From: an uncultured Mycoplasmatota bacterium | Lineage (GTDB): Bacteria > Bacillota_I > Bacilli_A > RF39 > UBA660 | Assembly (NCBI GenBank): GCA_949288035.1 | Contig: CASEIJ010000046.1 | Location: forward strand, 1-58,577 | Direction of reading: 5' to 3' | DNA: 58,577 nt | Shown: one piece after another, positions 24,160-45,449 of the stretch | Numbering within the stretch: the stretch's first letter is position 1 | Layout of the letters: each line of letters opens with the position of its first letter | Position numbers and translations under genes: made by a program | The notes under the pieces: generated by a model | What the model was told of the DNA's origin: nothing | Databases searched by the model: none | What the model saw: the letters and a program-made list of their open reading frames with translations, nothing else

Positions 24160-24669
24160 ATGAAAATCTTGAAGTATATTTTTCTTATTTGTTATATGTT
24201 GTTGGTATTCGCTACTACTTTTTTCTTGTTTACTTTTAATCAATTTTCTAGTAGTCAAATCGGTGATGTAACCATTATGGGACTTAAAAAAGATGTTGGT
24301 TCTTTTAATAAGGGAGATTTATTAATTGCTGTAAAAAAGAAAGAGCAAGTAAAAAAGAACGATGAAATTATCTATTACAATACAAAACAAGGGAAACATG
24401 AAGTTACTTTGGAACGTGTTGAAGATGTGATGAAAACAAATAAGAATGAGTATACTTATGTGATTCAAGATGGACTTTTTCTATCAAGTGAATATTTAAT
24501 TGGAGAAGTAAATCATATTACGGCAATACCTTTCTTAGGATATTGTTATCTATTATTTACAAGTAAGATTGGATATCCTGTGTTAATTATACTTCCTATT
24601 ACCATTGCGTTTATCTTTTTTATAAGAAAATATAGAGGAACCATGAAACATGAGAAAAATAAGAATTAA
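24160..24669 (+). CDS. SipW-like signal peptidase homologue lacking catalytic residues
   Basis: 169 residues with the layout of archaeal/SipW-type signal peptidases: an N-terminal TM (7-27), a periplasm-facing beta domain and a C-terminal TM (~143-160). The position of the catalytic Ser (eight residues before the conserved G-D at 52-53) is Lys44. The T-H-R-V catalytic-His motif is replaced by L-E-R-V (84-87). The S-S-E-Y-L-I-G-E-V segment of the family is kept. It is therefore predicted to be inactive as a protease, perhaps a scaffold or regulator. The stop overlaps the next gene, an exported protein, by 20 bases, as in working sipW-substrate pairs. Confidence 0.78.
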   Translation: MKILKYIFLICYMLLVFATTFFLFTFNQFSSSQIGDVTIMGLKKDVGSFNKGDLLIAVKKKEQVKKNDEIIYYNTKQGKHEVTLERVEDVMKTNKNEYTYVIQDGLFLSSEYLIGEVNHITAIPFLGYCYLLFTSKIGYPVLIILPITIAFIFFIRKYRGTMKHEKNKN

Positions 24670-25579
24670 GAAATTAACCCGATTTCAACGTCGTGTTTTT
24701 CTTATTGTTGGTATTTGTGTTTTTTTAACCATTGGTTTTACTTTAGGAAGATATGTTTATCACAAAGTGTTAGACTTTTATTTCAGAACACAAAACTTTT
24801 ATTTTGAAAGTGATAAATTAACTGCAGATGGTGCTTATTATTCTTTGGATTATTGGAATGGGGTTGACCCATATCAAATTGTTGTCAATGTAAATAGTTT
24901 TAAAAATAGTGAGTTAAAAAGTAATAGTGATATTGAATATGAAGTGAGTTTGAATTGTTCTGATACGATTATTTGTAGTAGTACCAAAGAAAAGGGAACT
25001 ATCTACCATGATTCAAATACAGATTATTTCATTGTTACATTGACACCGAATCAAGCATTTAAAGATGGTGATAGTGTTGTTGCGGAAATTATCGCGACTT
25101 CTACCAGTCCTTATCAGAAAAAACTATCTGCTCAATTTAAATTAGTAGTTGGGACTTATGGTTTAAGTCATGAGATTACCGACCATGAAAACGATGTTTA
25201 TTTAGAAGTAAAAATTACGAATACATTACTTACTTATACAGTCAAAGAAGCATTTGGTAGTTATCAAGTAGGTGCTCAATTATCTATTTCAGAATATAAT
25301 GCCCTGAGTGATGAAGATAAAAAGAAATGTGTATCTGCAAGTATTACTTTAGAGTTTGATCCCAATGTTGTCTATATAAATAATAACAGTACAACGTTTT
25401 TACAGGCATATCAAATTAAAACAGAAAAATTAAATGGTTATGATTATGTCAATCAATTTACATTTGATATGGAAGCATCTAGTAGTAGTGTTGTAAAATT
25501 CTATAAAAAAGATGCATCAAAAGATTATTCTAGTAATGGAGATTCTGATGGTGTTGTAAAAGTACATTATGATTATTAG
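24650..25579 (+). CDS. Membrane-anchored extracytoplasmic protein, TasA-locus type
   Basis: 309 residues. A basic N-terminus precedes one hydrophobic helix (~15-33), after which the sequence reads L-G-R-Y-V-Y, then Y-F-R-T-Q-N-F-Y-F-E-S-D-K-L. That F-Y-F-x-S-D-x-L pattern follows the signal region of many SipW-dependent proteins. The rest is beta-rich, with a Cys pair (C-S-D-T-I-I-C-S) and an N/D/S-rich C-terminus without a sorting motif. The residues after the helix do not show a clear cleavage site, so it may stay anchored. Its start lies inside the sip-like gene, implying co-translation with that protein. Confidence 0.72.
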   Translation: MRKIRIKKLTRFQRRVFLIVGICVFLTIGFTLGRYVYHKVLDFYFRTQNFYFESDKLTADGAYYSLDYWNGVDPYQIVVNVNSFKNSELKSNSDIEYEVSLNCSDTIICSSTKEKGTIYHDSNTDYFIVTLTPNQAFKDGDSVVAEIIATSTSPYQKKLSAQFKLVVGTYGLSHEITDHENDVYLEVKITNTLLTYTVKEAFGSYQVGAQLSISEYNALSDEDKKKCVSASITLEFDPNVVYINNNSTTFLQAYQIKTEKLNGYDYVNQFTFDMEASSSSVVKFYKKDASKDYSSNGDSDGVVKVHYDY

Positions 25580-25590
25580 GAGTTGGTTAG

Positions 25591-26571
25591 ATGAGTTGCA
25601 ATATTGTACAAGAATATGTCTCATTTTCACAAAAAGCAATTAAAAAGTATTTACAATCTATTTTGGGTCATTATTTTGATCAAGATATTTACGATGATTT
25701 GATTAATGCTTATGTAAATACACGCTATTATAATTTATATCCTGAAGTACATACACGATTTGAGGCAAATATTGTTTATTATTTGAAAAAAGCATTAGCT
25801 GGAGTCAAAGATGATAAAAGATATCAAAAGAAAGCAAAATATATGTTTTCTATGTTTAAATATATTTTGTATTTTGATCATGTTTGTGAATGTGATTCTG
25901 TCCGTACTTTAATTTCCGAGATTGCGAAATATCGAACAGAAGAGTTAGGAATTGAAGATGATCAATTTGAAGTAAACTTTTATCACCAATTAAAAGATGA
26001 TTTAACTGCAAAAGAAGAATTTATCGATAAGTTTCAAGATAAGAACTTTAGTATCAACTATGTAAAAGTAAATCAAAATCAAATTTTTGATTGTCAGTTA
26101 GAACATCATTTGAAGTTTTCTAAATTATATAGTGAATATGCCATTACAAAAGTATTTAATAATAAAGATATGCAGGAACAGAAATTGTTTGTGACATATT
26201 CTTTGGTTGGTGTCAAAATATTACAAGATATTATTAAAGGGATTTTTCACAAATGTTATTTAGTGGATTATAAATTAGAGTTAAAAGATAAACAGAAGAA
26301 GAAAAAAAGATTATTGACGATGATTGATAATGATATTACAAAAGAAAAGTTAGCTTTAAAGATATTGTGGAAAGATTATGTAACAGCGAAAGAAGAGGTA
26401 TATGAATTAACGAGAAATGGATTTCATGTTGCTATTGTATTGGATGATTCTTTCTTATTAAATGATGAGACAATGGTATTATTGAAAATATTTACTTATG
26501 TGATTACTAATCACAATGAAATGTTTGAAAAATTAAAAGGGCAATTCGATGTGTTATATATACCAAGTTAG
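25591..26571 (+). CDS. Unknown cytoplasmic protein upstream of the AAA+ ATPase
   Basis: 326 residues, predicted mostly helical (V-Q-E-Y-V-S-F-S-Q-K-A-I-K-K-Y-L at the start). A more mixed C-terminal part has a hydrophobic strand pattern (H-V-A-I-V-L-D-D-S-F-L). No signal peptide, membrane helix or known motif was found. It lies 11 bases after the preceding gene and 11 bases before the McrB-like ATPase gene, so the three are probably one transcript. It may be a subunit or adaptor of that ATPase; this is inference from gene order only. Confidence 0.72.
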   Translation: MSCNIVQEYVSFSQKAIKKYLQSILGHYFDQDIYDDLINAYVNTRYYNLYPEVHTRFEANIVYYLKKALAGVKDDKRYQKKAKYMFSMFKYILYFDHVCECDSVRTLISEIAKYRTEELGIEDDQFEVNFYHQLKDDLTAKEEFIDKFQDKNFSINYVKVNQNQIFDCQLEHHLKFSKLYSEYAITKVFNNKDMQEQKLFVTYSLVGVKILQDIIKGIFHKCYLVDYKLELKDKQKKKKRLLTMIDNDITKEKLALKILWKDYVTAKEEVYELTRNGFHVAIVLDDSFLLNDETMVLLKIFTYVITNHNEMFEKLKGQFDVLYIPS

Positions 26572-26582
26572 AAGGTGGATGA

Positions 26583-28106
26583 ATGGATACAGTATTTCGA
26601 TTTTTATATGAGTTTTTAAGTCAGTTTTTTGGAAGTATATTAACTGTTTTAATTGCTTGTGTACAAGGTTTAAAACAGATGTTTGATTGGAAAGCTTATC
26701 TTCGTATCTTAGATTTTTATAAAGATGATTTTAATGGCCCAGAATGGTTATTTGTAGCGTTAGTAATTATCTTTTTAGTCTTAATCGTTGTTGGCTTTGT
26801 CCTTTTAATCGTCTTTTTGATTCGCAAGTATATTCGCTTCCGTAAAACACTCGTAGAACAAGAAGAATTATTAAACGAGGTGGCAAAATTAAATGATGAA
26901 GTATCTAGTTTGGTCAAAGAAAAAGAAGATATTCTAGCTATGAAAGTATCTCACTTAGGATTGAAACCAAATGAAACAGATACGGAAGGAGTAGAAGAGA
27001 AACAAGAAGAAAATGTCAGTGCCGATGGTATTCGTTTTGCGAAATTAAATGAAGTAGATTTATTGTATGCGAATTATGCGGTTAAGAATTACAATGATAG
27101 TTTCTCATTACCGGAATTAGTAGAACTATTTCGTAATTTTGCAGCGAGTCAATTAAAATTATATTATAAGACAGAAATGATTCGAATATTTATATCAGCA
27201 CTTGCTTCTACGAAGTTAATTATCTTACAAGGTATTTCTGGTACCGGTAAAACTTCCTTAGCTTATGCTTGGGGAAAATTCTTAAAACATGATTCTTGTA
27301 TTGCCTCTGTACAACCATCATGGCGTGATCGTACTGAGTTATTTGGTTACTTTAACGAATTTACGAAGAAGTTTAACGAAACAGAAGTGTTAAAAACGAT
27401 TTATGAAGCAGGATATACAGATGATGTTTATACTGTTATCCTCGATGAAATGAATATCGCCAGAGTAGAGTATTACTTTGCTGAAATGTTATCTATTTTG
27501 GAAATGCCAAATAAAGATGAATGGGTTGTAGAACTCGTATCTAGTAGTTGGCCAAATGATCCAAAAAAATTAATTGACGGAAAATTAAAAATCAGTCCAA
27601 ATACATGGTATATTGGTACTATCAATAACGATGACTCAACATTTATGGTAACAGATAAAGTATATGACCGTGCTATGCCAATTGATATCAATGATAAAGG
27701 GGAAGTTTTTGAACCGATTGATACACCGGCCCAAGATGTCAATTACTCTTATTTAGATCGTTTATTTCAAGATGCTATGGAACAAAATCCAATGAGTGAT
27801 GAAGTACTAAGAAAAATAGAAGAAATGGATAATTATGTGATTAAACATTTCCGTATTGCTTTTGGTAACCGTATTGTTGCTCATATGAAGAAGTTTGTAC
27901 CTGTTTACGTAGCTTGTGGTGGTGATGAAGTAAGTGGAGTAGACTACTTTATTGCCAAGAAAATTTTACGTAAATTCGAACAATTAAACGTTTCATATAT
28001 CCGTGATGAAATCGATGGTTTTGTCGAATTTTTAGACAATACATTTGGTAAAGGAAAAATGAAAGAGTGTGAAGAATACGTTCTTAGATTGAAAAAATTA
28101 ACATAG
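26583..28106 (+). CDS. Membrane-anchored McrB-like AAA+ ATPase
   Basis: 507 residues. The N-terminus has two hydrophobic helices (~14-30 and ~55-80) and a coiled coil (~85-125). A C-terminal AAA_5/McrB-type ATPase follows. Walker A is G-I-S-G-T-G-K-T-S (217-225). The adjoining McrB-type segment is V-Q-P-S-W-R-D-R-T-E-L-F-G-Y, Walker B is V-I-L-D-E-M-N (Asp288-Glu289), and the sensor region reads G-T-I-N-N-D-D-S-T then D-K-V-Y-D-R-A. McrB proteins of restriction systems are soluble; two membrane helices suggest another use. It sits amid surface-protein genes, followed after 12 bases by a DUF2357-like gene. Confidence 0.87.
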   Translation: MDTVFRFLYEFLSQFFGSILTVLIACVQGLKQMFDWKAYLRILDFYKDDFNGPEWLFVALVIIFLVLIVVGFVLLIVFLIRKYIRFRKTLVEQEELLNEVAKLNDEVSSLVKEKEDILAMKVSHLGLKPNETDTEGVEEKQEENVSADGIRFAKLNEVDLLYANYAVKNYNDSFSLPELVELFRNFAASQLKLYYKTEMIRIFISALASTKLIILQGISGTGKTSLAYAWGKFLKHDSCIASVQPSWRDRTELFGYFNEFTKKFNETEVLKTIYEAGYTDDVYTVILDEMNIARVEYYFAEMLSILEMPNKDEWVVELVSSSWPNDPKKLIDGKLKISPNTWYIGTINNDDSTFMVTDKVYDRAMPIDINDKGEVFEPIDTPAQDVNYSYLDRLFQDAMEQNPMSDEVLRKIEEMDNYVIKHFRIAFGNRIVAHMKKFVPVYVACGGDEVSGVDYFIAKKILRKFEQLNVSYIRDEIDGFVEFLDNTFGKGKMKECEEYVLRLKKLT

Positions 28107-28118
28107 TAGGTGAGAAAA

Positions 28119-29255
28119 ATGGAAGACATTGTAAATTTATATAATCGTACTTCGCCAAGTCAGAAAGAACAATTCCAAAAAAATTTAGTTTCTAATTTGC
28201 ACGTTAAAGAAAAATCAAATTCTTCAACTTATGATGATACTTGGTTAGTAAAAATGGAAGAAACAATTCGTTATTTAGATAATATCTTGAGAAACCCAAA
28301 TCGTTTTATTGTCAATGAAGAAGAGATTGTAAAAATTGAATTAGCGCGTCGTATTACCGTTGATAGTATTAAACACTTATCTAGAAATACCAATTTAATT
28401 CAAGATTACAATCAAAAAACAGGAGAAGTACGTCCTTCTAAGATTTTAAATATTAATAAAGAAGAGACCTTTAATACTTATGAGAATCGTTTTATTTATA
28501 CTTTGATTAATAATATGAAGTTATATATTGAACGTAAGAAGAAAGAAGATATTGCTGATAACCAGTTAAATGAATATAAGAACTTTACTTATCAAGGAAA
28601 AGGTAAGATGAATGACGAGACGGTAGAACTATCACTACAATTGACGGGAAAAAAAGAAAAGGGAAAAGAAAAAAATCAAGTAGATTCTATCCCCAATCGT
28701 ATTGCGAAAGTAGAGGAAAGAATCCGTGATTTATGTTCTTCTGATGTATATAAAAGTATTGCTAAATTGCATGTCGCACCGGTTACTTCACCGATTAAAA
28801 AAACCAATTTAATTTTAAAAAATGTGAACTTTCAATACGCATTAGATTTGTGGAATTTTATGCAGATGAATATGGAACCAAGTGTGAAGAGTAATCATAC
28901 CAATAAGGACTATCAAGATCAAGGGAAATTAAAAGAGATGATGGATCAATCATTCTTATTGAATTGTCTGATTATGAATACTATGAATCAACCGGAAGTC
29001 ACAAAAGAAGAACAGGAAAGTTTACAGGAAGAAGTTGTCAATCAATCTGTGAATCAGCTGATGAATATCAGTGACCAATTATCATTAGAAGAACTGATGA
29101 AATTAGTTGGTGATCAATATGTGAAAGTAAAATATAAGAAAGTATTAGATACCAGTGAAATAGAGCGCATTTATAAAAAAGCAATCCGTGAATATATGGA
29201 TAAAATAGAACATTTGAAGGTGAGAAAAAATGAAAGTGATCAAGAAGATATTTGA
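28119..29255 (+). CDS. DUF2357-like partner of the AAA+ ATPase
   Basis: 378 residues from ATG 28119 (AGGTGAG upstream; the GTG at 28110 is part of that site). The segment I-E-L-A-R-R-I-T-V-D-S-I-K-H-L, then R-P-S-K-I-L-N-I-N-K-E-E-T-F-N-T-Y-E-N-R-F-I-Y, resembles DUF2357/DUF524 proteins. Those pair with McrB-like ATPases and sometimes carry a C-terminal PD-(D/E)XK nuclease. I see no D...E-x-K nuclease motif here; the C-terminus is charged helix. It likely forms a complex with the ATPase. It overlaps the next sip gene by 26 bases. The DUF match is by eye. Confidence 0.68.
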   Translation: MEDIVNLYNRTSPSQKEQFQKNLVSNLHVKEKSNSSTYDDTWLVKMEETIRYLDNILRNPNRFIVNEEEIVKIELARRITVDSIKHLSRNTNLIQDYNQKTGEVRPSKILNINKEETFNTYENRFIYTLINNMKLYIERKKKEDIADNQLNEYKNFTYQGKGKMNDETVELSLQLTGKKEKGKEKNQVDSIPNRIAKVEERIRDLCSSDVYKSIAKLHVAPVTSPIKKTNLILKNVNFQYALDLWNFMQMNMEPSVKSNHTNKDYQDQGKLKEMMDQSFLLNCLIMNTMNQPEVTKEEQESLQEEVVNQSVNQLMNISDQLSLEELMKLVGDQYVKVKYKKVLDTSEIERIYKKAIREYMDKIEHLKVRKNESDQEDI

Positions 29256-29811
29256 TAATCCAATTGTCCGTTTTTTAGTAGGATTGGTAAAAGTAGTTAT
29301 ATGGGTGTGTGTGATTCTGATTGTTTTATTAATTGCACTTCAACGACTATTTAATAACCAAGTAAGTTTAGGTAGTTATCGTATGTTTACAGTAGTAACA
29401 GGAAGTATGTTACCTGAATATCAAATATACGATGTAATCGTTGTAAAAGAAGAAGATCCAAAAGAGATTGAAGTAGGGGATGATGTTGCCTACTTAGGAG
29501 AAAAGGATGATTATAAAGATAAAATTATTACCCATAGAGTCATTCAAAAACGTGAAGAAAATGGAACTTATTATTTTACAACACAAGGAATTGCGAACCA
29601 AGTAGCAGATCCAGAAATCCGTTCTGACCAACTATACGGAACTGTTTCTTATCGACCAAAAGTATTAAGTTGGTTTAGTCATATTTTAAATAATTCTTAT
29701 GGTTTATATTTCTTAATTATTGTACCAATCGCATTTTTAATACTATTAGAAATTTTAGATTATATCAATCGTAAAGAAAGTGAACTAGAAGAAGATGGCC
29801 AAGAAGAATAA
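29230..29811 (+). CDS. sipW: SipW-type signal peptidase, catalytically complete
   Basis: 193 residues. It has an N-terminal TM (~15-38), a catalytic domain with Ser59 in T-G-S-M-L-P, His102 in I-T-H-R-V-I and the later A-D-P-E acid region (Asp127), and a C-terminal TM (~160-180). Use of Ser/His instead of Ser/Lys marks the archaeal/ER/SipW class. Bacillus SipW cleaves TasA and TapA. The start overlaps the preceding gene by 26 bases behind AAGGTGAG. The next gene, an exported TasA-like protein, begins inside its 3' end and is its most likely substrate. Confidence 0.93.
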   Translation: MKVIKKIFDNPIVRFLVGLVKVVIWVCVILIVLLIALQRLFNNQVSLGSYRMFTVVTGSMLPEYQIYDVIVVKEEDPKEIEVGDDVAYLGEKDDYKDKIITHRVIQKREENGTYYFTTQGIANQVADPEIRSDQLYGTVSYRPKVLSWFSHILNNSYGLYFLIIVPIAFLILLEILDYINRKESELEEDGQEE

Positions 29812-30397
29812 AATCAAAAAGATAAAACGTAAAGTTCGTCGTAGTACACTCTTTTTCTTGATTTTTGCCTTTATGGCAAATGCGTTTGCTTGGTTTATAT
29901 ATAGTAATAAAGTTTCTAATCAGCTTACAACAGGTGTTAAATCATGGAAAATAACCTTTGAACAAGATGGAAATGATCTTACAGATAATGTATTTTTTGA
30001 AATCGATTCTATTTATCCTGGAATGGAACCATTTCAAGAGTCCATTGAAATTAAAAACTCTGGAGAACTTCCTGCATATATTACCTATACTGTGAAATCA
30101 GTAAAAATATTAGATGAGACTTATACAGATGAAGATTATACCAGTGATAAATTATTGGAAATACTACGTACTCGTTATCCTTTTCAAGTTACATTTACAA
30201 TCGATCAACCTGAAATTCCAGTCGGGACAGTTGGAACATTTTCTGTTCATCTCGATTGGCCATATGAGTCAGGAAACGATGAATTAGATACTTACTGGGG
30301 TAAGAAATCTTATCAATATCAACAAGATTACCCTGATGAAAAACAAATCCAAATCAATGTTAAATTAGTTGCTAGTCAAAAAAAACCACAAAATTAA
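29795..30397 (+). CDS. SipW-dependent TasA/camelysin-like exported protein
   Basis: 200 residues. The basic start (K-K-N-K-I-K-K-I-K-R-K-V-R-R-S) is followed by a hydrophobic core and A-N-A-F-A-W-F-I-Y-S-N. This fits the SipW-class signal peptide, with cleavage expected around A-F-A-W-F. The mature part is a single beta-rich domain with P-G-M-E-P-F-Q-E-S-I-E-I-K-N-S-G-E-L-P-A-Y, typical of TasA-like jelly-roll proteins. It is co-translated with the sip gene and is last in its operon, ending at a bidirectional terminator. A fibre or surface-coat subunit is the natural guess. Confidence 0.85.
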   Translation: MAKKNKIKKIKRKVRRSTLFFLIFAFMANAFAWFIYSNKVSNQLTTGVKSWKITFEQDGNDLTDNVFFEIDSIYPGMEPFQESIEIKNSGELPAYITYTVKSVKILDETYTDEDYTSDKLLEILRTRYPFQVTFTIDQPEIPVGTVGTFSVHLDWPYESGNDELDTYWGKKSYQYQQDYPDEKQIQINVKLVASQKKPQN

Positions 30398-30409
30398 TTG
30401 TGGTTTTAT
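30382..30409. terminator. Bidirectional terminator between two TasA-like genes
   Basis: A perfect 10-bp stem AAAACCACAA/TTGTGGTTTT (30382-30391 with 30398-30407), loop AATTAA. The stop codons of both converging genes touch it. Confidence 0.85.
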
Positions 30410-31002: not shown

Positions 31003-31023
31003 CACCCCTTTTTCTCTAATTTC

Positions 31024-31182: not shown

Positions 31183-31494
31183 ATGAACATGATACTAGTG
31201 CTTTCATTTATTTTAATCATTACTATTTTTGTGATTGCTGTTGTTTGTCTGTTTTACTTTACGAAAAAACATCACCCAAAGACACCAAAACCATCTAATG
31301 AAGAAATTGAAATATTAATCTATCAAGATGAAATGCCAAATAAAGAAGCAAGTAAAGAAATACCTCATGAAACAGTGAGTGATGATACTTTAAATTTAGA
31401 TGATTTATTTAAAACAATGTCCATTCATGTGTTAAAAGATGATCCTGATTTTGACTTTGGATTACGTCGTACTCAAAACGTTAAAAAACATTAA
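31183..31494 (+). CDS. Small membrane-anchored protein of unknown function
   Basis: 103 residues. One strongly hydrophobic N-terminal helix (~3-27) ends in T-K-K-H-H, followed by an acidic, proline-containing tail of ~70 residues with no recognised motif. By the positive-inside rule the tail is probably cytoplasmic. It starts 8 bases after GAGGGGTG, has a promoter sharing the locus-specific -10, and is followed by a strong terminator, so it is a one-gene unit. It could be a regulator or membrane linker of the surface-fibre system; nothing in the sequence decides this. Confidence 0.72.
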   Translation: MNMILVLSFILIITIFVIAVVCLFYFTKKHHPKTPKPSNEEIEILIYQDEMPNKEASKEIPHETVSDDTLNLDDLFKTMSIHVLKDDPDFDFGLRRTQNVKKH

Positions 31495-36200: not shown

Positions 36201-39200
36201 ATGGTGGAACCATTACTAATTTATTTGGTGGAAATGATGCAAGAGGAGAACCAAATGGAAATGTTGTTGTTAATTTAAACGGTGGTACGATTGAAAACGC
36301 TTATGGGGGAGGAAATAATACCCTTGTTACAACAACACAAGTAAATCAAAATGGTGCAACAGTAACAAATTTGTTTGGTGGAAGTAATCGTAGTGGAAAT
36401 GTAAACGCTGCTCATATTGCAGTACGTGGTGGTACTACCATCCAACTTTATGGAGGAAATAATGTTGGTGGTAAAACGACCACAACCGATATTACAATGA
36501 CTGCTGGAGAAGTAACGACCATGTATGGTGGTGGAAAACTAACGGATACAAACAGCAGTGAAATACAAGTATCCAACGGAAATGCAACTACAATTTATGG
36601 TGGTGGAGAACAAGCCAATATGGTAGACGATACGAACATCGATATTACTGGTGGAACCATTGGAACGATTTATGGTGGTTCTAACATGAAAGGGGATGTT
36701 CCAACCTCTCACTTAATGATACAAGGTGGTAATATTCAAGAAGTATATGGTGGAAATAACCAAGGTGGAATTACTGCTACAACGAATGTGTCATTATTAA
36801 ATGGAACCATTGGTAATGTCTATGGTGGTGGTAATAAAACATCGACGACAACTTCTCATGTTACATTAAATGGTTCTAATGTTAGTTATATTTATGGTGG
36901 AGGAAACCAAGCTGGAGTTACGACAACCAATGTCAATTTAATGACTGGAACTGCGGATTATACATTTGGTGGAAGTAATCAGAGTGGAACTGTTCAAACC
37001 GCAAATGTATCGGCTAGTAATCCAAATCAATTAGTTGTTAATAACGTTTATGGAGGAAATAACCAAGGTGGTTTAACCAATGATACATATGTCACATTAA
37101 ATGGAGGAAGTTATATCAACTTGTATGGAGGAGGAAATATGGCTCCAACCGATCGTCCTCATGTCCATGTAAGTGGCATTGAAATGACAGGTGAATTCTT
37201 TGGTGGAGGAAACCAAGCCGAAGTAACAGAAGATACAGAAGTAACATTTGAAAACTCTACCATCAATGGAGATTTATTCGGTGGTGGTAACTTAGGTGTT
37301 GTCTCTGGTAATACCAATGTCTATGTCACGAATTCCTATGTTGCAAGTAGTATTTATGCCGGAGGAAATGGTGCTACGGCAATTGTACTAGGAACGACAA
37401 AATTAGATGTCGATAATAATACAATTGTTGATAAACATGTCTTTGGAGGAGGAAATGCTGCCAATACCGGTAGTGAAGATAAAAATAATTCAGTTAGTAA
37501 AGTAAATATAGCTGGTGCAACAATTCATGGAAATGTCTATGGTGGTGCGAATACAGCTGTATTATATGGAATCGTAGAATTAAATATTGGAAAAGTAGAT
37601 GAACAATTAATTAAATCACCAATCAAAATCGATGGAACAGTCTTTGGTGGAGGAGAAGCCAATGCGAGTGGTGATCCAAACTACGATTATTCATTTATTA
37701 GTGTTACCAAAGGAATCAATATTCAAATTGATGGAGCTGGTTATGATGAATTTTATATCAAAGGTTCTATCTTTGGAAGTGGTAACGCATCTAGTACAGA
37801 AGGATATAGTTATATCGATATTTCAAACTATGGAACATTTGAACAATATCAAGAAAATATTTCTATTCAAAGAGCAGATATTGTCACATTAATCAATTCT
37901 GCTATTAAACTAGAAGGAACAACCGATAGAACAAACGAATTCTCAACAACGAAGTTTAGTATTAGTCGTGTCAAAGAATTTAAAATTGCGAATGATAGTG
38001 TTTTATTCTTAGAAAATGGTACGAACTTATTGGAAAAATGGAATAGTTTAAAAATTGATGGTGATAAAGAAGAAAAAGCAACAGTTACTATTAACGATGA
38101 TGGAACTGTTACGAAAAATGTCAATAATCGTGTCTATATGTTAGAAGGAAAGAACATGAATGTCGCAACTAATGAAGCGGTTACGAGTTATGGAGAAGTC
38201 AGTGGTATGACATTCTTTGGAATGTATCAATTAGATCGTAATGATCGTGTATTTACAGCCTTTTATGATAAGAAATACGAAGCTGGAGATGTAGTTGCTC
38301 CTGGAGAGTTTTATGCCTTTACATCTGGTAGTTATGTATTAGGATTACATAATACAAATCATGATATTACCAAAGATGGTTTCTACAGTAATTATGAAGA
38401 TGAAGAAGTTGAAGGAACGGTTGAAGTAAAATACATTGAACCTACACCAAGTGATGCTAGTTATTACATGTGGGTAATTGGAGAAACAGTTACTACATAT
38501 GAACTGACATTAACAGCTTCTAAATATGCAACATTAGGAACTTATGAATTACCTCTTGTTACATCAGTAGGAGCAAATACCCAATTTGAAATACTTGGAT
38601 TTAACTATCAAAATCTAGAAGAAGGATTCTCTTTAGTAGATCCTGATACCATTGAACGTGTCAATCAAGAAGGTAAAGCAGATGATGTGATGGGACTTCG
38701 TATGGAAGCTTCTAACAATGGATTTGTAACCAAAGGTCATACTGACTTTCAGACCAATGAACAAACACCAGTGGTTGGAACAACCAACTATAAAGCTGAA
38801 AACTCCAGTGCTGTTCCTAGTTTTATCTTCTACTTATATCACTCTAAAAACTTAACAAAACAAAGAGAATTAGGAACTGTCGTTATCTCTCTTTTAGAAA
38901 TTACACCAATTGATGAATTGAATAATGAAGTAACCAGAGTCAATATTAATGTTACTTTGAACTCAGCACTTTATTCTAATAATGAATATGAAGGTGCTAT
39001 GACATCGGGAGAAAAATATGATCTATTTGCTTCAACGCAAACAGATATTACGAATAAATCGACATTGAGTGCTTATTATTCACTTTATATGGAAACAGAT
39101 AAAACATATTATCAACAAGATTATCAACATGCTTTAGTTTCTAATTATGTACTTCCAGAAAAGACAAAAATTACTATGATTGATCTTACGAATGAACCGA

Positions 39201-40387
39201 CTTATTACTATCATGTTATGTCTAGTGAAGATGTTATAAGAGCCACAGCCGAACATCAACAATATGGAGAAAGTTCTTATTTCTTCAAAGACTTTATTAA
39301 GATGGGATCGACAAGCAGTGATAATCACTATCAAGAATGGGAAAATATGCAGAAGTACTATGCTCAGGACTTAGGCATCATTCAAGAAGAATTCATCTTT
39401 ATTGTTGACTTTGGAGATACCAATATCAGAGGTGATCAGATTGGTAATTCTCTTTTAATCGAACTGAGAAATGGTCAGAATCAAACACTACTGAGTGTTC
39501 TTGGTATTCAACATGCCAATCTAACCTACAATTTATACGATGAACAACAAGCGAAAATCGATATTGAAGGTACCTTATCTGATAATCCTGTTTATATTGG
39601 AGATAGTACCAACTTAGAATTAACAACCAACTTTATACAACCAAGTGTCAGTGGTTCAACTGTTGTCGATACAACTTATTTTGATAAACGATTGGGAATT
39701 TATATTACCATTTATGATGCGAATAATAATCAGTTAAACAATAGTAGTTTATTAGGATTAAATTATGAATTAGATGGTGTTACTTATTATCCGCGTATGG
39801 ATGGAAGTGTTCGTATTCCACTGGCTGATAAAGTAGCAAATGTATTCAGTCGTATTAAAATTAATACCAATACAGCCAATCTAATTAGTGGTACTTATAA
39901 ATTAAAAATTGAATCATTTGGTTCACCAGATGGAATTTACTTTGGAAACAATTCATCTGATCAAATTGAAATTCCATTGGAAATTGTAAATAGTAAATAT
40001 GGATTGGATGTTTCTTTAGATGATGAACAATTAACCATCGATAAAGAAACAGGATATACACAAGCAGAGAATAATGCACTCGTATTCCATGTGAAATATT
40101 CATCTAATTTAGCTAACCCAAATATTCGTGTTCGTCTATCACGTAGAACATATGATGATATTTATAGTACGGAATATGTGGATGTCAATTTATTAGATTA
40201 TATTACTAACCAATTAGAAGCAACTGGAGAATATGAATATATGTTTGAAGAAAATCCAACCGGCAACATGGATAAATTTATCTACTTAAAAGATTATCTA
40301 CAAAGTGGAACATATCGATTTGTATTTGCTCTATACGATGGAGATACTTTTATTGGCGATTGTACAGAATATGTTATAATAAAATAG
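33263..40387 (+). CDS. Giant secreted repeat protein, predicted beta-solenoid (2374 aa)
   Basis: A basic start and hydrophobic core (~11-32) form a signal peptide. Residues ~40-240 are beta-rich and end in an InlB-B-repeat-like piece (Y-A-S-W-T-R-A-T-V-A-Y). Residues ~265-380 have several cysteines (C-T-D-C, C-T-T-R-N-G-C). Residues ~540-1525 are tandem ~24-25-residue glycine-rich units centred on [FY]-G-G-[GSN]-N; I count about 29, as expected of a parallel beta-helix. The last ~850 residues are non-repetitive beta-rich domains. No LPxTG, S-layer or choline-binding motif is seen, so attachment is unexplained. Likely an adhesin or fibre/spore-surface protein. Confidence 0.88.
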   Translation: MRRKWQKKKQAYLLALFACIIPITTIAFTYGALKTANPTDTISRGIAGDTVYIDDSMSDYYYYTGQNYTNSDNGSLPTLSNKNIYGDTNLVKTTVIYDGTSYDGKHTGYVSFNEKQRKFVYEKYYPVENGYIEIELIDNPFSDAPNDLAFNGWMTNYRGAEISYDDNYYVRTVKVPVTYAGNLPQPIEIHMYASWTRATVAYVNGGTDVDAIQSQLKDKGMNEISTINYIYEYPDVAGYYKGGTITTTATKSSIFGGTDVDYGTCTDCYDESTNYYAEYTCEAPSFGFLETGTKTNTCQVFYLQDENDEYELGTTYYEKSGRRFVDANLQPTIIGTEESDLFQETSNMSGYYRQVTIPYQSPTTGYYNQDGVVQSGTCTTRNGCLLYELIQFYKDDGQEELLDPDMKYYYLTTRDTNIVVMNGNMSSAWDESSTKPFTLTGIYNDYDYHPIWNVSRLSVVCYADTRIENLTIVSSSYHGETNPSSSNSTNATLYGNYFNVKLGRNIKNDGTHVNFNTILGGLNNTSIWENGSFGSRSNPERYRFIVESGDYNASSSTMGSRTGTTGTELYTETTTIYGNDYDRATVNNSNLRLYFCAAGGWGGRIYSSNDDLIPAIYTIVKSGDFGTNSIDHTSGVYVGGRNGGTHYAPRSAKIEGGSIRNLIGGPLTASSKGDQNDIFIYMTGGEVDMIVGGAGTSTTYGNRILQITGGLVNYSVFGGSNGYDGSSSDGTLTGDSYIYVGGNATIGNDTMMNSNQTLWGAEAGSVFGSGNGNTRYATIGSVDHSNIIIADQAVVKRNVYGSGNYGTVGYSASSTSSTAIQLIGGTVNGSIFGSGNHSGSGRSGRVTSTIDITLNGGTVLDSIYGGSNQEGTVYGSSNITLVNGTIKDTYGGGLGENTYISQEVSVTAGNENTNALTVTGSVYGGSAYGVVNSTSKSNQASTYPTNVTVNAGTINGVFGGGKGDASITPYVAGNVTVTTNGGTITNLFGGNDARGEPNGNVVVNLNGGTIENAYGGGNNTLVTTTQVNQNGATVTNLFGGSNRSGNVNAAHIAVRGGTTIQLYGGNNVGGKTTTTDITMTAGEVTTMYGGGKLTDTNSSEIQVSNGNATTIYGGGEQANMVDDTNIDITGGTIGTIYGGSNMKGDVPTSHLMIQGGNIQEVYGGNNQGGITATTNVSLLNGTIGNVYGGGNKTSTTTSHVTLNGSNVSYIYGGGNQAGVTTTNVNLMTGTADYTFGGSNQSGTVQTANVSASNPNQLVVNNVYGGNNQGGLTNDTYVTLNGGSYINLYGGGNMAPTDRPHVHVSGIEMTGEFFGGGNQAEVTEDTEVTFENSTINGDLFGGGNLGVVSGNTNVYVTNSYVASSIYAGGNGATAIVLGTTKLDVDNNTIVDKHVFGGGNAANTGSEDKNNSVSKVNIAGATIHGNVYGGANTAVLYGIVELNIGKVDEQLIKSPIKIDGTVFGGGEANASGDPNYDYSFISVTKGINIQIDGAGYDEFYIKGSIFGSGNASSTEGYSYIDISNYGTFEQYQENISIQRADIVTLINSAIKLEGTTDRTNEFSTTKFSISRVKEFKIANDSVLFLENGTNLLEKWNSLKIDGDKEEKATVTINDDGTVTKNVNNRVYMLEGKNMNVATNEAVTSYGEVSGMTFFGMYQLDRNDRVFTAFYDKKYEAGDVVAPGEFYAFTSGSYVLGLHNTNHDITKDGFYSNYEDEEVEGTVEVKYIEPTPSDASYYMWVIGETVTTYELTLTASKYATLGTYELPLVTSVGANTQFEILGFNYQNLEEGFSLVDPDTIERVNQEGKADDVMGLRMEASNNGFVTKGHTDFQTNEQTPVVGTTNYKAENSSAVPSFIFYLYHSKNLTKQRELGTVVISLLEITPIDELNNEVTRVNINVTLNSALYSNNEYEGAMTSGEKYDLFASTQTDITNKSTLSAYYSLYMETDKTYYQQDYQHALVSNYVLPEKTKITMIDLTNEPTYYYHVMSSEDVIRATAEHQQYGESSYFFKDFIKMGSTSSDNHYQEWENMQKYYAQDLGIIQEEFIFIVDFGDTNIRGDQIGNSLLIELRNGQNQTLLSVLGIQHANLTYNLYDEQQAKIDIEGTLSDNPVYIGDSTNLELTTNFIQPSVSGSTVVDTTYFDKRLGIYITIYDANNNQLNNSSLLGLNYELDGVTYYPRMDGSVRIPLADKVANVFSRIKINTNTANLISGTYKLKIESFGSPDGIYFGNNSSDQIEIPLEIVNSKYGLDVSLDDEQLTIDKETGYTQAENNALVFHVKYSSNLANPNIRVRLSRRTYDDIYSTEYVDVNLLDYITNQLEATGEYEYMFEENPTGNMDKFIYLKDYLQSGTYRFVFALYDGDTFIGDCTEYVIIK
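34890..37830 (+). repeat. Coding tandem repeats, ~72-75 bp period (beta-solenoid region)
   Basis: The region encodes the G-G-T-I-x-x-I-Y-G-G-G-N units of the giant protein. The protein period is mostly 24-25 residues. DNA copies have diverged, but short blocks recur, such as GGAAATAACCAAGGTGG near 36755 and 37053. That could allow copy-number change by slippage or recombination. Confidence 0.75.
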
Positions 40388-40397
40388 GAGGATTCAT

Positions 40398-40523
40398 ATG
40401 GATGTAGAAAAAGTAAAAACAAGTGAGTTAATCGAATGTTATCAGATCGTTCAAAATTATCTAAAACAGTTAGAAACAGAGAAAAAAGAAGTGGAGAAAG
40501 AATTAAATGAAGGAAAAAATTGA
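40398..40523 (+). CDS. 41-residue helical protein (small ORF)
   Basis: It begins at ATG 40398, six bases after a perfect AGGAGG, 10 bases after the giant gene, and ends at TGA 40521-40523. The product is one charged helix (E-L-I-E-C-Y-Q-I-V-Q-N-Y-L-K near the middle, then K-Q-L-E-T-E-K-K-E-V-E-K-E-L). It overlaps the start of the next coiled-coil gene by 17 bases, suggesting coupled translation. No family recognised; the strong ribosome site is the main evidence that it is real. Confidence 0.7.
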   Translation: MDVEKVKTSELIECYQIVQNYLKQLETEKKEVEKELNEGKN

Positions 40524-42045
40524 AAAAGATATTGAACTAAGTCAAGAAGTATTTCAAAGTCTTCCTACGAATAACATCAAAAATAAAAAGAAATTTTTAA
40601 CTGAAATAGATAAAGAAATTGCTCACTATCAAGAAACATTAAATACCATTTATCAAGAATTAGTAAATAGACAAAAGCCATATATGTCTTTAACAGAACA
40701 TCAATATGAAGAATATGATGATGCTTTATTACAATTGACAAAAGCACTCTCATATACAAATAACTTAAGTACTGCATACGAGAAATTAAAGTTAGATAAA
40801 AATATTTATTGTTTAACCCATTATCAAAATAATGATTTAAAACAAAATAATCAAATATTAAAAAGAATGATCGATCTTTTCCAAAAAGTAGGAATCCCAT
40901 TACAAAGTAAAGATTTCACTTATACCAAGTTTGTTACTCAGTATATGGATTCCTTTTTCTCCTATCAGTATTATTTAGACAGTAAAGATTTAGAAAAAGT
41001 ATTCGAAGATCTTTATTGGAAAGATTCACATATGATTTTGGAAATAGAACTCAATATGAGACATCTATACTTAAAACATCAATCAGAATTTGAAAAATAC
41101 ATAAAAAAAACAAATCAAACATTACTATCTCATTTTAAACAGGGAGAAAAGAATTTAATCGATGATTATTCTTATTTAAGACATAAATTAGAACAAGTAA
41201 AATTAGAAGATAAAAATAATTTACTTTATTATTTTGTAACTGATACTTATCGCGTGGATGACTATGCAGAAAACAAAATAGAACCACTGATTCAGAAGTA
41301 TTTTAGTCACTATCCAAATCAACAATCATTAGAAGAAGTATATCAAGATACATTAAAGTTATTACATTCTCTTCAAGAATATCAAAATTATACGAAATAC
41401 GATTCATTTATTCAAAAAATGAAGAAGTTATATAAAGAAAATTTAGAGAAGAATGTAATTGCGAAACATATGAAGAAAATCAAAGAATTAGAGAAGAAAT
41501 TATGGAAATTAAATAAGAAATCAACACATTCCAGTAAAAAGACAAAAGTAGATAAATTAGAACCAGAAATTAATCAAGTGATTCAAGATATTCATGAACA
41601 GTATACAGAAATTGACCAAGTGATGTTTCAAACTGTGTTAAAAGAAAATATTCGTGATAATTCAACGATATTTAAAGCACTGTTATTATTAAGTCAATAC
41701 TATTGTTTTGTAGCTGATTTATGTCGTGAACAAAATAGTGACATTACTTATGAAGAGATTGATCAAATCCATCAAGAATTAACTTCTTTTGTATTAAATC
41801 CTGATAATACGATGATAAATAATATGACAATATTAGAAGATGTGAATCTTTCTGATATGGTAATTGCCAATTATCAATTGCTTGGTATTCAGATTACAAA
41901 AGATATGTTAGAAGGAAATCAATTAGATCTCTGTATGAGTGATTTAAAGAAAATATTAGTATATTATCAATTACAAAAACAGAAGATTTCTTTACAATCA
42001 TTAGAAGATATGAAGAAGATTCAAAAAATAATGGAAAAGAAATAA
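40507..42045 (+). CDS. Long helical/coiled-coil cytoplasmic protein, unknown
   Basis: 512 residues, almost all helix, rich in K, E, Q, L and Y. It has coiled-coil stretches near the start (~1-60) and around residues 300-360 (K-K-I-K-E-L-E-K-K-L-W-K-L-N-K-K). No signal peptide, membrane helix, P-loop or other motif is visible, so it should be cytoplasmic even though its operon encodes secreted proteins. It is translationally coupled to the 41-residue gene. A cytoplasmic assembly or secretion factor for the giant protein is possible. I do not recognise the family. Confidence 0.75.
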   Translation: MKEKIEKDIELSQEVFQSLPTNNIKNKKKFLTEIDKEIAHYQETLNTIYQELVNRQKPYMSLTEHQYEEYDDALLQLTKALSYTNNLSTAYEKLKLDKNIYCLTHYQNNDLKQNNQILKRMIDLFQKVGIPLQSKDFTYTKFVTQYMDSFFSYQYYLDSKDLEKVFEDLYWKDSHMILEIELNMRHLYLKHQSEFEKYIKKTNQTLLSHFKQGEKNLIDDYSYLRHKLEQVKLEDKNNLLYYFVTDTYRVDDYAENKIEPLIQKYFSHYPNQQSLEEVYQDTLKLLHSLQEYQNYTKYDSFIQKMKKLYKENLEKNVIAKHMKKIKELEKKLWKLNKKSTHSSKKTKVDKLEPEINQVIQDIHEQYTEIDQVMFQTVLKENIRDNSTIFKALLLLSQYYCFVADLCREQNSDITYEEIDQIHQELTSFVLNPDNTMINNMTILEDVNLSDMVIANYQLLGIQITKDMLEGNQLDLCMSDLKKILVYYQLQKQKISLQSLEDMKKIQKIMEKK

Positions 42046-42070
42046 AAAAATACCTAAATAGGTTGATTTA

Positions 42071-42079
42071 TGGTACAAT
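42071..42079 (+). promoter_or_regulatory. Extended -10 promoter of the second sip cluster
   Basis: TGGTACAAT (42071-42079), an extended -10 with no good -35, 20 bases before the ATG at 42100. No convincing terminator separates it from the preceding gene, so read-through is possible. Confidence 0.5.
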
Positions 42080-42099
42080 GAACATAAAGGAGTAGAAAA

Positions 42100-42630
42100 A
42101 TGAAGAAAGTTTTAAAAGCAATATTAGGAATTATAGGAATTTGTTATCTAGTTGTTGTGATCGCTGTAACAGCATGCTTACTTTGTTACAATAAATATAA
42201 AGTAACAGAAATGTTTGGTTATAGCTTTGTGATTATCGACGATAATTCAGATAGGTATCAAGAAGGAGATCTTGTTTTATTTCAAAAAAATGAATTAAAA
42301 GATATACGACGTACCGATGAGATTTTCTTTTATGAAGTAAAAAATGGTGTAGCTAGTATTCGCTATGGAACCATTACCGAAATAGTTCCTGTAAGTACTG
42401 AGGAAAGTACCTTTACAATTAATGATAATCATGATATTTCAAGTGAGAGTTTGATTGGTAAAACTGAAACAGCAAAAGTTTATCCAAAAATTGGAAAAGT
42501 ATTGGCTGTTTTAGAATCTCGTTTTGGATTTTTACTATTAGTAATCTTGCCAACTTTAGTTTTATTCTTATATGAACTATATCGTGTTATCATTGAAATT
42601 AAAACACCAATTGAAGAAGATGAAGAATGA
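42100..42630 (+). CDS. SipW-like signal peptidase homologue lacking catalytic residues (second copy)
   Basis: 176 residues with an N-terminal TM (~8-29), a beta domain and a C-terminal TM (~146-165), the SipW layout. Eight residues before the conserved G-D (56-57), where Ser belongs, is Asp48; the S-M-x-P motif is absent (I-I-D-D-N-S-D-R-Y). T-H-R-V is replaced by I-R-Y-G (~87-90). S-S-E-S-L-I-G-K is retained, as in the 24160 protein. Loss of both motifs in two separate copies argues for a conserved non-proteolytic role. It overlaps the next exported-protein gene by 4 bases (ATGA). Confidence 0.77.
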   Translation: MKKVLKAILGIIGICYLVVVIAVTACLLCYNKYKVTEMFGYSFVIIDDNSDRYQEGDLVLFQKNELKDIRRTDEIFFYEVKNGVASIRYGTITEIVPVSTEESTFTINDNHDISSESLIGKTETAKVYPKIGKVLAVLESRFGFLLLVILPTLVLFLYELYRVIIEIKTPIEEDEE

Positions 42631-43199
42631 AAAAGACACTGATTTTTATTAGTGTTGTCTTTTTGCTTCTCACAGTATTACAGGTGGCAAATAGTTTTGG
42701 ATTATTTGAAACAAAAATTGAAAATGAAACAGATTTAGAAGTTGCAAAATGGCATATTTTTGTCAATCAGTATGATTTGAATGGTGAAGCTCAAACTTTC
42801 TATGTCGATCAGATTACTTATACGGATCGTCAAGGAAATCGTGTGGATCGTTTCGCTCCAGGAGTCACTGGAATCTTTCAAATCGTTATTGATCCAAAAG
42901 ATACCGAAGTATCTTTTCAATATCGAATGAAAATCGATATGAGTCAAAATCAATATACACAAATTCAACTTGATCAAATTGAAGGACTGAACGGAATTCA
43001 ACTAACGGAACAAGATGGTGTTTACAGTCGTATTATGACATTAAATGAAATAGAAAATGGCGTAAAAGATACCATTCAGGTCACGTTTCACTGGGAGTAT
43101 GATGATCAATACAATGAAAGTGATTCCATGTTAGGACAAACCCCTGATAGTCAATTTACAATTCCAATTTCCATTCAGTTTGAACAGTATACAGAATAG
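42627..43199 (+). CDS. TasA/camelysin-like exported protein, paralogue of 30406
   Basis: 190 residues. A short basic start and hydrophobic segment (~4-22) lead to A-N-S-F-G-L-F-E-T-K-I-E-N-E-T-D. The mature region has E-V-A-K-W-H-I-F-V-N-Q-Y-D, R-F-A-P-G-V-T-G-I-F and D-P-K-D-T-E-V-S-F-Q-Y. These match the minus-strand protein at 30406-31002. It starts inside the stop of the inactive sip homologue (ATGA). The active signal peptidase encoded 21 bases downstream may be the one that processes it. Confidence 0.84.
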   Translation: MKKTLIFISVVFLLLTVLQVANSFGLFETKIENETDLEVAKWHIFVNQYDLNGEAQTFYVDQITYTDRQGNRVDRFAPGVTGIFQIVIDPKDTEVSFQYRMKIDMSQNQYTQIQLDQIEGLNGIQLTEQDGVYSRIMTLNEIENGVKDTIQVTFHWEYDDQYNESDSMLGQTPDSQFTIPISIQFEQYTE

Positions 43200-43220
43200 A
43201 ATAAAAAGCGTGGTGACATT

Positions 43221-43793
43221 ATGAAGAGTGGGACAATTTATAAAATTGCGAAAATTGTCGGCAATGTTTTATTTGCCGTTTTAGGTATTATTTTATTAAT
43301 ATGTTTATATTCTTTTGTCAGTATGAAAATACTATCACATAAATATGTCAATTTATTTTCATACACATGCTTTCAAATTGGAAGTAATAGTATGTCACCA
43401 ACCATTACAACGAATGATTTAATCATTGTTCATTTAAATGAAGATATAAAAGAGGGGGATATCCTCACATATGAAGATGGAGATACATTTGTAACCCATC
43501 GTGTGATGGAAGTCAATGATACAGGTTATATTACGAAAGGAGATGCCAATCAAAGTGAAGATCAAGCCATCTTAAAAGAACAAGTAGTAGGAAAAGTTGT
43601 TAAAATATTACCAAATTTTGGTGTTTGGTTTAAAGTGATTACAACACCTAAAATTATTATTTTAATATGTATTACACTATTATGTTTTTCACTGGCATTC
43701 TCTTATACAGGAAAAAAATATTTATCGCGAGATGATGATTTTGGTATTTATTACTCTGGTATCAAAATGAAAAAGGAGAATTCAGATGATTGA
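43221..43793 (+). CDS. sipW: SipW-type signal peptidase, catalytically complete (second copy)
   Basis: 190 residues. It has an N-terminal TM (~12-34), then Ser57 in G-S-N-S-M-S-P, His93 in V-T-H-R-V and the acid motif K-G-D-A-N-Q-S-E-D (Asp108/Asp114). All the expected SipW-class catalytic elements are present, with a C-terminal TM (~144-163). It is therefore an active signal peptidase sitting between two exported-protein genes (42627 and 43786) and near 44427, all plausible substrates. It overlaps the next gene by 8 bases. Confidence 0.94.
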   Translation: MKSGTIYKIAKIVGNVLFAVLGIILLICLYSFVSMKILSHKYVNLFSYTCFQIGSNSMSPTITTNDLIIVHLNEDIKEGDILTYEDGDTFVTHRVMEVNDTGYITKGDANQSEDQAILKEQVVGKVVKILPNFGVWFKVITTPKIIILICITLLCFSLAFSYTGKKYLSRDDDFGIYYSGIKMKKENSDD

Positions 43794-44340
43794 TAAAAAG
43801 AAATTTTTATATTTCAATCGTATTACAGTTGCGGTAATTGGAATTTTTATCTTGTTATCATGTACACGTTTTGCTTTTTCTAAATTTTATACAAATGGTC
43901 AAGGAGAAGCAATCAGTGAAATCGCTTTTTATACCATCAATCCAGGCACACAAACGCAGACATTAAAAATGTTTGATATAAAACCAGATGGAAAAGATTA
44001 TGTTTACGATATAAACGTATCGAATTTTCAAGATAACAATGTCAGTGAAGTAGATATGGAATATCACTTATCATTGCGAACAACAACCAATATACCAATT
44101 GAATATAAGATTTATCTGAATGGTAGTACCATGAATGAGTTCAATCAAAAAGAAGTGATTCAAGACGAAGATGGAATGTACTTTTTCCGTTTTCAAGCAC
44201 CAGTAGGAAATTTCCAAAAAAATGTTGAGAAAACAGATCATTATCAATTAGTTGTTAATTTTCCAAGTATATATAACGAAGAAACGTATCAAGACTTAAT
44301 AGAAAGTGTAGAAGTGACAATTGATGCAGAACAATTGTAA
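43786..44340 (+). CDS. TasA-like exported protein
   Basis: 184 residues. The N-terminal signal region is basic, then hydrophobic (~15-28), then R-F-A-F-S-K-F-Y-T-N, reminiscent of SipW-class sites. The beta-rich mature part includes Y-D-I-N-V-S-N-F-Q-D-N-N-V-S-E-V-D-M-E-Y, a TasA-like strand pattern also seen in camelysin-type proteins. An L-L-S-C in the hydrophobic segment looks like a lipobox, but the following residues favour SipW-type cleavage. It starts inside the active sip gene, so it is that enzyme's likeliest substrate. Confidence 0.8.
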   Translation: MIDKKKFLYFNRITVAVIGIFILLSCTRFAFSKFYTNGQGEAISEIAFYTINPGTQTQTLKMFDIKPDGKDYVYDINVSNFQDNNVSEVDMEYHLSLRTTTNIPIEYKIYLNGSTMNEFNQKEVIQDEDGMYFFRFQAPVGNFQKNVEKTDHYQLVVNFPSIYNEETYQDLIESVEVTIDAEQL

Positions 44341-44367
44341 ATTAATTGTGAAAAATGTGAAAAAATG

Positions 44368-44397
44368 TTGCGATACTGATTTTGATTATGATAAAAT
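44368..44397 (+). promoter_or_regulatory. Promoter of the 44427 gene, with shared -10 motif
   Basis: TTGCGA (44368-44373), an 18-bp spacer and TAAAAT (44392-44397) within TATGATAAAAT (44387-44397). TTGCGATA is also shared with the promoter at 31122. Confidence 0.7.
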
Positions 44398-44426
44398 AGA
44401 AATAGTAGAATAGGTAGGGATTATGT

Positions 44427-45449
44427 ATGAAAAAGAATAATAAAAAGAAGAAAGCACAAATGAAAAAAAGAAGATTATTATTATCGCTTCTTCTATTAGT
44501 AGGAACAGGAGTATTTTTAGGAACTGCAACTTATGCATGGTTTACAGCCAATCAAACAGTAGCAGTTAATCCAATCGATGTAAACGTTGCTGCACAAAGT
44601 GGTTTACAAATTTCTGCGGATGCGAAAAATTGGAAATCAATTTTGACTACAACAGATATTACAAGTGCAAGTGGTAATTATAGTGCTGCTAAGAACCAAT
44701 TGCCAACGCAAATGGCACCAGTATCCACAGCTGGAATTATGAATGCTGATGGAACGATGGAAATGTTCTTAGGAGAAGTAAGTTCTGATGAAGATAGTGG
44801 TAACTTTGTTTTAGCATCTACAAAAGAAACAGATCAAAATGGTACAGTGGGTAACTATGTTGTATATGATATGTTTTTACGTACTGAAACAGCTGGACAA
44901 GTTTATTTAACAACAAACTCTGGAATTACATTTGCAGATGAACAAGATAATGGTATTAAGAATGCAACTCGTGTCGCATTTGCCGTTCTTGGAAATACAA
45001 GAAGTGACGATAAAGTTGAAAATATTCAAAAATTAAATGCTGGAGCTGCTGCACCAGTTACAATTTGGGAACCAAACTATGATGACCATACTTCATATGG
45101 TGTTGCTAATGCTCGTGATACTTATGGCAATAATGATTTAGTTGCTGGTACAGGAAATGAAGCTGTTGCATATGATGGTATTAAAGCTGCATTTGGATCA
45201 GATCAAAATATTACACTTGGAAATGCCAATGCTACATCAGCTGGAGCATATTTCCAAAAAGTAACACCACAAATTCAAACAGAAGTTGGATTTAGTGATT
45301 ATAAAGCATTAGTAAATCTAAGTGCTGGAGTTACAAAAATTAGAGTATACTTCTGGATTGAAGGACAAGATGTAGACTGTGAAAACAATGCATCTGGAGG
45401 AAACATTACATTTGACCTACAAATCAGTAGAAATTCATCAGCTGCTTAA
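44427..45449 (+). CDS. Secreted SipW-class protein, candidate major surface subunit
   Basis: 340 residues. The signal peptide has a very basic start (K-K-N-N-K-K-K-K-A-Q-M-K-K-R-R), a hydrophobic core and T-A-T-Y-A-W-F-T-A-N, the SipW-cognate motif. The mature protein is A/N/T/G-rich and shares several long segments with the 32267 protein (I-W-E-P-N-Y-D, Y-G-V-A-N-A, E-G-Q-D-V-D-C-E-N-N-A-S). The two are clear paralogues. It has its own promoter and terminator, unlike the operon-embedded copy, so it may be made in larger amounts. A fibre-forming subunit is a reasonable inference. Confidence 0.87.
   Translation: MKKNNKKKKAQMKKRRLLLSLLLLVGTGVFLGTATYAWFTANQTVAVNPIDVNVAAQSGLQISADAKNWKSILTTTDITSASGNYSAAKNQLPTQMAPVSTAGIMNADGTMEMFLGEVSSDEDSGNFVLASTKETDQNGTVGNYVVYDMFLRTETAGQVYLTTNSGITFADEQDNGIKNATRVAFAVLGNTRSDDKVENIQKLNAGAAAPVTIWEPNYDDHTSYGVANARDTYGNNDLVAGTGNEAVAYDGIKAAFGSDQNITLGNANATSAGAYFQKVTPQIQTEVGFSDYKALVNLSAGVTKIRVYFWIEGQDVDCENNASGGNITFDLQISRNSSAA

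Follow-up and report, generated by a model that had tools for sequence, protein, structure and literature searches.

A conserved locus encoding a membrane McrB-type GTPase, signal peptidases and exported proteins in an uncultured Mycoplasmatota bacterium, with a proposed role in surface filament assembly

Genes of the locus

The window analysed here is a 58,577-nucleotide stretch of DNA (contig CASEIJ010000046.1, assembly GCA_949288035.1) from an uncultured gut Mycoplasmatota bacterium, and the subject of this report is a module of 18 open reading frames (ORFs), A to R, that spans positions 24160 to 45449 and encodes an McrB-type GTPase with a membrane segment, four SipW-like proteins and a series of exported proteins. 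The module is bordered on the left by spoVIF (23127–23369; an 80-aa ORF matching PF14069 at 82 bits) and on the right by spoIVA (45530–47005; TIGR02836, 728.7 bits), both of which lie outside it. These two genes and all genes of the module are on the positive strand, with the exception of H on the negative strand; the initial annotation, which described a 21-kb set between spoVIF and spoIVA on a single strand bar one gene, was right in its coordinates, strands and borders. Genes abut or overlap within the blocks A to G, J to L and N to Q, which is consistent with operons. The gene for a 214-aa protein, X (23454–24098, positive strand), stands between spoVIF and A in own-genus loci only and is probably a genus-specific passenger outside the core.

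D (26583–28106) is an McrB-type AAA+ GTPase with an N-terminal membrane segment and coiled coil, and a profile built from seven D sequences matches Escherichia coli McrB in the PDB (E = 1e-5). Its NxD(D) motif reads NNDDST in 88 of the 89 readable loci of the organism's own family and, for the 23 D proteins from other families, N[NKR]DDST throughout, which fits the branch of GTPases whose NxD motif mostly has an E or another D after it (PMC11090510). Residues ~54–82 are hydrophobic and residues 88–115 follow a heptad pattern when read by eye; an FtsL-type model matches at only E = 0.016, and the likeness of this region to FtsB is one of hydrophobic and heptad pattern. The gene 3′ of D encodes E (28110–29255), an McrC-like DUF2357 protein without a nuclease domain: PF09823 is found in all 27 members scanned, none of which carries a PD-(D/E)xK nuclease family, and Pfam and NCBIfam scans recognise no nuclease family in the remaining locus proteins. 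No long coiled coil is evident in E of the own family; E proteins of other families are 512–932 aa long. The two had been described as a membrane AAA+ pair, which holds for D, the one membrane AAA+ protein, and fails for its DUF2357 partner. Directly 5′ of D lies C (25591–26571), a cytoplasmic protein without conserved catalytic-type residues, proposed to be an adaptor between signal peptidase and GTPase. A by-eye likeness of C to a degenerate EAL domain was not supported by the Pfam scan.

All four SipW-like proteins named in the initial annotation are present. F (29230–29811) and P (43221–43793) match TIGR02228 at 83.6 and 87 bits, above its cut-off, while A (24160–24669; E = 9e-7) and N (42100–42630) match only weakly and lack both the catalytic serine and histidine. 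These residues were read from a single alignment of 214 SipW-like proteins, in which both are kept in 74 of 75 proteins at the position after E and in 37/37 at the position between H/O and Q (or fused there), against 0/44 at the position before H/O and 0/12 before B. This pattern makes inactivity a conserved property of particular positions, and by sequence A and N are enzymatically dead pseudo-signal peptidases, with F and P active. In Streptococcus, a signal-peptidase-like protein with its serine and lysine replaced, SipA, is essential for pilus polymerisation (PMC4049620), and by analogy A and N are most likely assembly chaperones that hold on to precursors but leave them uncut. A second SipW-type locus occurs in the same genome as the window (G000:C2, ~7717–10281; L015, L165), where a signal peptidase is fused to a polytopic membrane domain beside small exported proteins of ~170 aa, with no GTPase in the stretch read.

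Exported or anchored proteins, of which at least six had been claimed, number nine (B, G, H, J, K, L, O, Q and R), and they begin with a single transmembrane (TM) segment. R (44427–45449), a candidate main subunit, and its paralogue K (32258–33247; 38% identity) are exported beta proteins bearing a TYAWF signal region (YAWF in K), and some genomes hold about six R/K paralogues. The SipW-dependent signal model TIGR04088 matches 9 of 28 R/K members (best E 5e-5; a weak 0.018 for R of the window), and A-W(-F) is conserved at the putative cleavage site. The AlphaFold2 model of R is confident, with a predicted local distance difference test score (pLDDT) of 87.3 and a predicted template modelling score (pTM) of 0.82; a match to archaeal bundling pili (7ueg) was discarded, ranking 32nd at E = 0.66. 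G (29795–30397), with an AWF signal region, is modelled at pLDDT 86.5 as an immunoglobulin-like (Ig-like) protein, its structure matches comprising Ig-like, ASH and PapD-like domains, including Caf1M chaperones (probability up to 0.99, E > 0.001). An Ig fold is also present in TapA, a chaperone-like protein that starts TasA filaments (PMC10151520), and G might therefore play a comparable part. Overall, the exported proteins appear to have Ig-like or novel beta folds.

Profile comparison joins several of these proteins. H (30406–31005, negative strand), a conserved inverted gene, and its paralogue O (42627–43199; by alignment) compare with G at 98% in hhalign, and Q (43786–44340), a remote relative, at 95%. 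When only mature domains are aligned, G with H/O gives 93% and R with J, whose C-termini are remote relatives, gives 92%; B stands apart, and TasA is weakly similar to H/O (51%) and Q (44%). Remote profile similarity of 94–97% links G to PF12389-type (TasA/camelysin) proteins, partly from the signal region. No protein of the window locus matches PF12389 at E 0.1 or better; in the GTPase locus of one relative (L050), a PF12389 gene (15456–16565) lies directly 3′ of G. PDB sequence-profile searches yielded no usable match for G, H/O, R or C.

The largest gene encodes L (33263–40387), an exported protein that has the 2374 residues and the repeats initially annotated, with a repeat unit of ~24–25 residues (YGGGN...T.V.L.GGTI..I); it is possibly a beta-solenoid and is a candidate tip or surface adhesin. 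B (24650–25579), which forms a family of its own, and J (31570–32286), which is core across families and tracks D, are membrane-anchored exported proteins, the anchor of B being an N-terminal TM segment. M (40507–42045) is a putative coiled-coil cytoplasmic protein of 512 aa, conserved in 25 loci and without a TM segment, and I (31183–31494) is a small genus-level membrane protein found in few loci, all of close relatives.

Conservation and host distribution

D was searched in relatives, in 145 genomes of the family, in 296 genomes of the class and in GTDB species contigs, where 80 loci were kept of at least 483 found; an iterative profile of each protein was then run over the ORFs of the D loci and gene maps were drawn. 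The order C-D-E-SipW-G is near-invariant in the 80 GTDB loci. C lies immediately 5′ of D in 73 of 79 loci and is fused to SipW there in 4 others, E is 3′ of D in 79/79, and a signal-peptidase-like protein follows E directly in 75/78 (two being SipW+G fusions and one dead). Most loci of other families also have a signal-peptidase-like protein. G comes next after the signal peptidase in 68 of 75 loci, H comes directly after G in reverse orientation in 53 of 70, B is at position −2 relative to D in 66 of 73, and L-related proteins occur in 53 of the 80. Natural fusions link the parts to one another, joining SipW to C in six loci, to G in two (L097 and L129) and to Q in five, where L050 and L080 represent one contig. 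Within the family, all 34 J-positive genomes carry D, as do 35 of the 36 with strong R/K matches (Fisher p ~1e-27 for D-J and D-R/K co-occurrence across the 145 genomes, not corrected for phylogeny). J and R/K also adjoin D in other families, near further large exported proteins, and thus look like conserved cargo.

Recurrence of the same gene order across 80 loci shows that the A to R set is one real module and not a chance assembly, and its membership is well supported; with J and R/K tracking D and the order conserved, the genes are not scattered and independent among relatives. The single, separate export and assembly module with SipW-type processing that had been predicted is therefore borne out by order and co-occurrence, the fibre itself being an inferred product. 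Some loci depart from the common plan. In family f10 (L215, L216; G253, G301), two D genes with signal peptidases lie ~15 kb apart and flank an exported protein of ~2300 aa, as tandem copies of the system. In a variant (L141, L144), a giant L-type protein of ~2770 aa comes directly after D and E, and the stretch read contains no SipW. The inversion of H at the same place in most loci may matter as a special promoter arrangement between two transcription blocks. In family f14, a GGDEF/EAL-like gene, recognised by eye, stands immediately 5′ of a D fragment (L059 in G056, 4460–6196) and hints at control of the cyclic diguanylate type in that family.

The same core is common in Bacilli without penicillin-binding proteins and SpoIVA. 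Among 21 carriers from other families that were tested, 17 lack both SpoIVA and any transpeptidase domain of penicillin-binding proteins (PBPs). In the 296 class genomes, the transpeptidase domain PF00905 is absent from 66 of 93 strong D carriers, compared with 96 of 203 other genomes (p = 1.5e-4), an excess that few families drive and that includes some incomplete assemblies. PF00905 is absent from every D carrier of families f7, f10, f14 and f22, and these carriers are therefore probably wall-less, judging from absent genes only. No sortase domain is found in Pfam or NCBIfam scans of the locus proteins. Given the carriers without PBP transpeptidases, the system seems to need neither peptidoglycan nor sortase.

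Proposed mechanism and alternative explanations

The reading that we favour, at a probability of about 0.6, is that the locus encodes a membrane GTPase of the CoCoPALM type, named in 2024 and discussed below, that is coupled to signal peptidases and processes and assembles a surface filament or adhesin; the coupling, the GTP-driven assembly and the filament as product are inferred. Sec would insert precursors that each carry one N-terminal TM segment, and the dead signal peptidases A and N may bind some of them near the cleavage site and hold them. D would form a ring at the membrane, activated by E, and C may link D to the cytoplasmic side of SipW, so that D would spend GTP on gating or driving their release and polymerisation. 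Coupled to this GTPase, F and P would process the exported set (R/K, J, G, H/O, Q, B and L) for assembly as a surface filament or adhesin, on which L may sit at the tip or surface as an adhesin. In TasA fibres the N-terminal strand serves as the donor strand (PMC9674648), and by analogy A-W(-F), conserved where cleavage presumably takes place, would be compatible with such a donor strand.

Several observations weigh against this proposal. The filament is predicted from the genes, and none has been seen. Neither model finds a PDB entry at E ≤ 0.001: the confident R model has no match at this level, and R may therefore be a new fold, while the matches of G described above are all above it. TasA is absent among the PDB matches of both R and G listed by Foldseek, and the TasA jelly roll initially expected is not supported for these two proteins, both of which have confident models. 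B, C, J and M have no known relatives, and their roles are consequently guesses. Outside the family, the signal peptidase before D is catalytically intact wherever it can be aligned, so the dead form is an own-family variant and not essential to the wider type. Finally, the AAA domain of D is also similar to PDC-M26A, a family of candidate defence proteins (E = 2.5e-35).

Among the alternatives, the one that fares best, although we consider it unlikely, is a membrane-anchored adhesin or S-layer-like coat in which SipW trims part of the subunits, the rest remain anchored and the GTPase has no role beyond regulating their processing. The single TM segment at the start of each exported protein and the failure of the confident R model to match any known fibre subunit would suit such a coat, from which carriers without PBPs could profit. 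However, the roughly six R/K paralogues of some genomes look more like filament assembly, dead signal peptidases are found with pili, and the Ig-like G resembles Caf1M/PapD chaperones.

Less probable again is a role in anti-phage defence, with infection sensed by the McrBC-like GTPase and the envelope proteins serving as its effector. Most of the McrB/DUF2357 family is engaged in restriction or defence, D has its PDC-M26A match, and D is patchily present (41 of 145 family genomes). By contrast, about half of the module consists of exported proteins, PADLOC matched D alone among the ten proteins scanned, and no nuclease is found in E or recognised elsewhere in the locus; in CoCoNuTs, absence of the McrC nuclease always goes with the presence of a different one (PMC11090510). 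Carriage by phages or plasmids was also rejected, since no relative is found in the viral contigs searched and no match in the plasmid search covers most of D; the absence from viral contigs likewise counts against defence.

A spore-associated appendage, suggested by the position between spoVIF and spoIVA, is very improbable and already largely refuted. That position is limited to the organism's own genus; elsewhere, as in G011, G034, G019 and others, the module lies at other sites, and in four loci (L060, L062, L065 and L066) spoVIF directly adjoins spoIVA with no module between. Of the 21 family genomes that lack spoIVA, 11 carry D, compared with 29 of the 124 that possess it, and the many carriers in other families that lack SpoIVA along with transpeptidases point the same way. 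The sporulation link drawn in the initial annotation is rejected on this distribution: the address beside spore genes is incidental, and the module has no tie to sporulation. A hotspot of unrelated genes, as the large size, the many small genes and a peak in guanine-cytosine content in L might suggest, is refuted by the kept order, the co-occurrence with D and the gene fusions.

Relation to described systems

The closest counterpart is CoCoPALM, a type named in one paragraph by Bell et al. (eLife 2024) with its description deferred, and defined as an NxD McrB-like GTPase with an FtsB-like TM/coiled-coil domain together with associated signal-peptidase proteins (PMC11090510). The window locus shares an NxD McrB-like GTPase fused to a TM/coiled-coil region, a DUF2357 partner and signal-peptidase-family proteins; a coiled coil is usual for the DUF2357 partner, and no long one is obvious in E of the own family. 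The earlier statement that no described system combines these parts thus needs qualifying, as the type had been named, although it was left undescribed there (PMC11090510). A later account of CoCoPALM was not found in the literature searched; subscription papers were outside its scope, and such an account may exist. The locus is a gene-rich variant of this named type, and its new elements are the exported substrates, the dead/live peptidase pairs, C, the SipW fusions and the occurrence without PBPs, none of which appears in the main text of that paper.

Other systems share parts of this arrangement. The tapA-sipW-tasA and sipW-calY operons of Bacillus likewise place a SipW-type peptidase beside exported beta-sheet substrates, but have one SipW, two or three substrates and no GTPase, and the window proteins differ from theirs in having no PF12389 match and, for R and G, in finding no TasA among PDB structures. 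SipA of Streptococcus pyogenes, a signal-peptidase-like protein that has lost its catalytic residues and is encoded in a surface-filament gene cluster, works with sortase-built pili (PMC4049620), whereas the window set has no sortase and A and N are SipW-like. In Staphylococcus aureus, PcdA is an McrB-family AAA+ protein turned from restriction to cell architecture (PMC10602043); it is an EVE-domain division protein, in contrast to D, a membrane-anchored protein that is accompanied by E, its DUF2357 partner, and by signal peptidases. In CoCoNuT and McrBC type IV restriction systems, a nuclease is present in McrC or an adjacent gene, unlike at the window locus, where none is recognised.

A broader proposal, which we put forward tentatively and at somewhat less than even odds, is that the locus represents a new class of surface-filament machine, widespread in Bacilli with no recognisable peptidoglycan wall and also in walled gut Bacilli, in which an McrBC GTPase, stripped of its nuclease and moved to the membrane, would power or gate signal-peptidase-coupled assembly with dead peptidases as chaperones. 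If true, this would mean that bacteria of the Gram-positive lineage can build surface filaments by a nucleotide-powered route that dispenses with sortase and, apparently, with a cell wall. It would also be a clear example of the co-option of a DNA-restriction motor for protein export. The fusions, live/dead peptidase pairs and co-occurring substrates would make directly testable a type whose content and function were left open in 2024.

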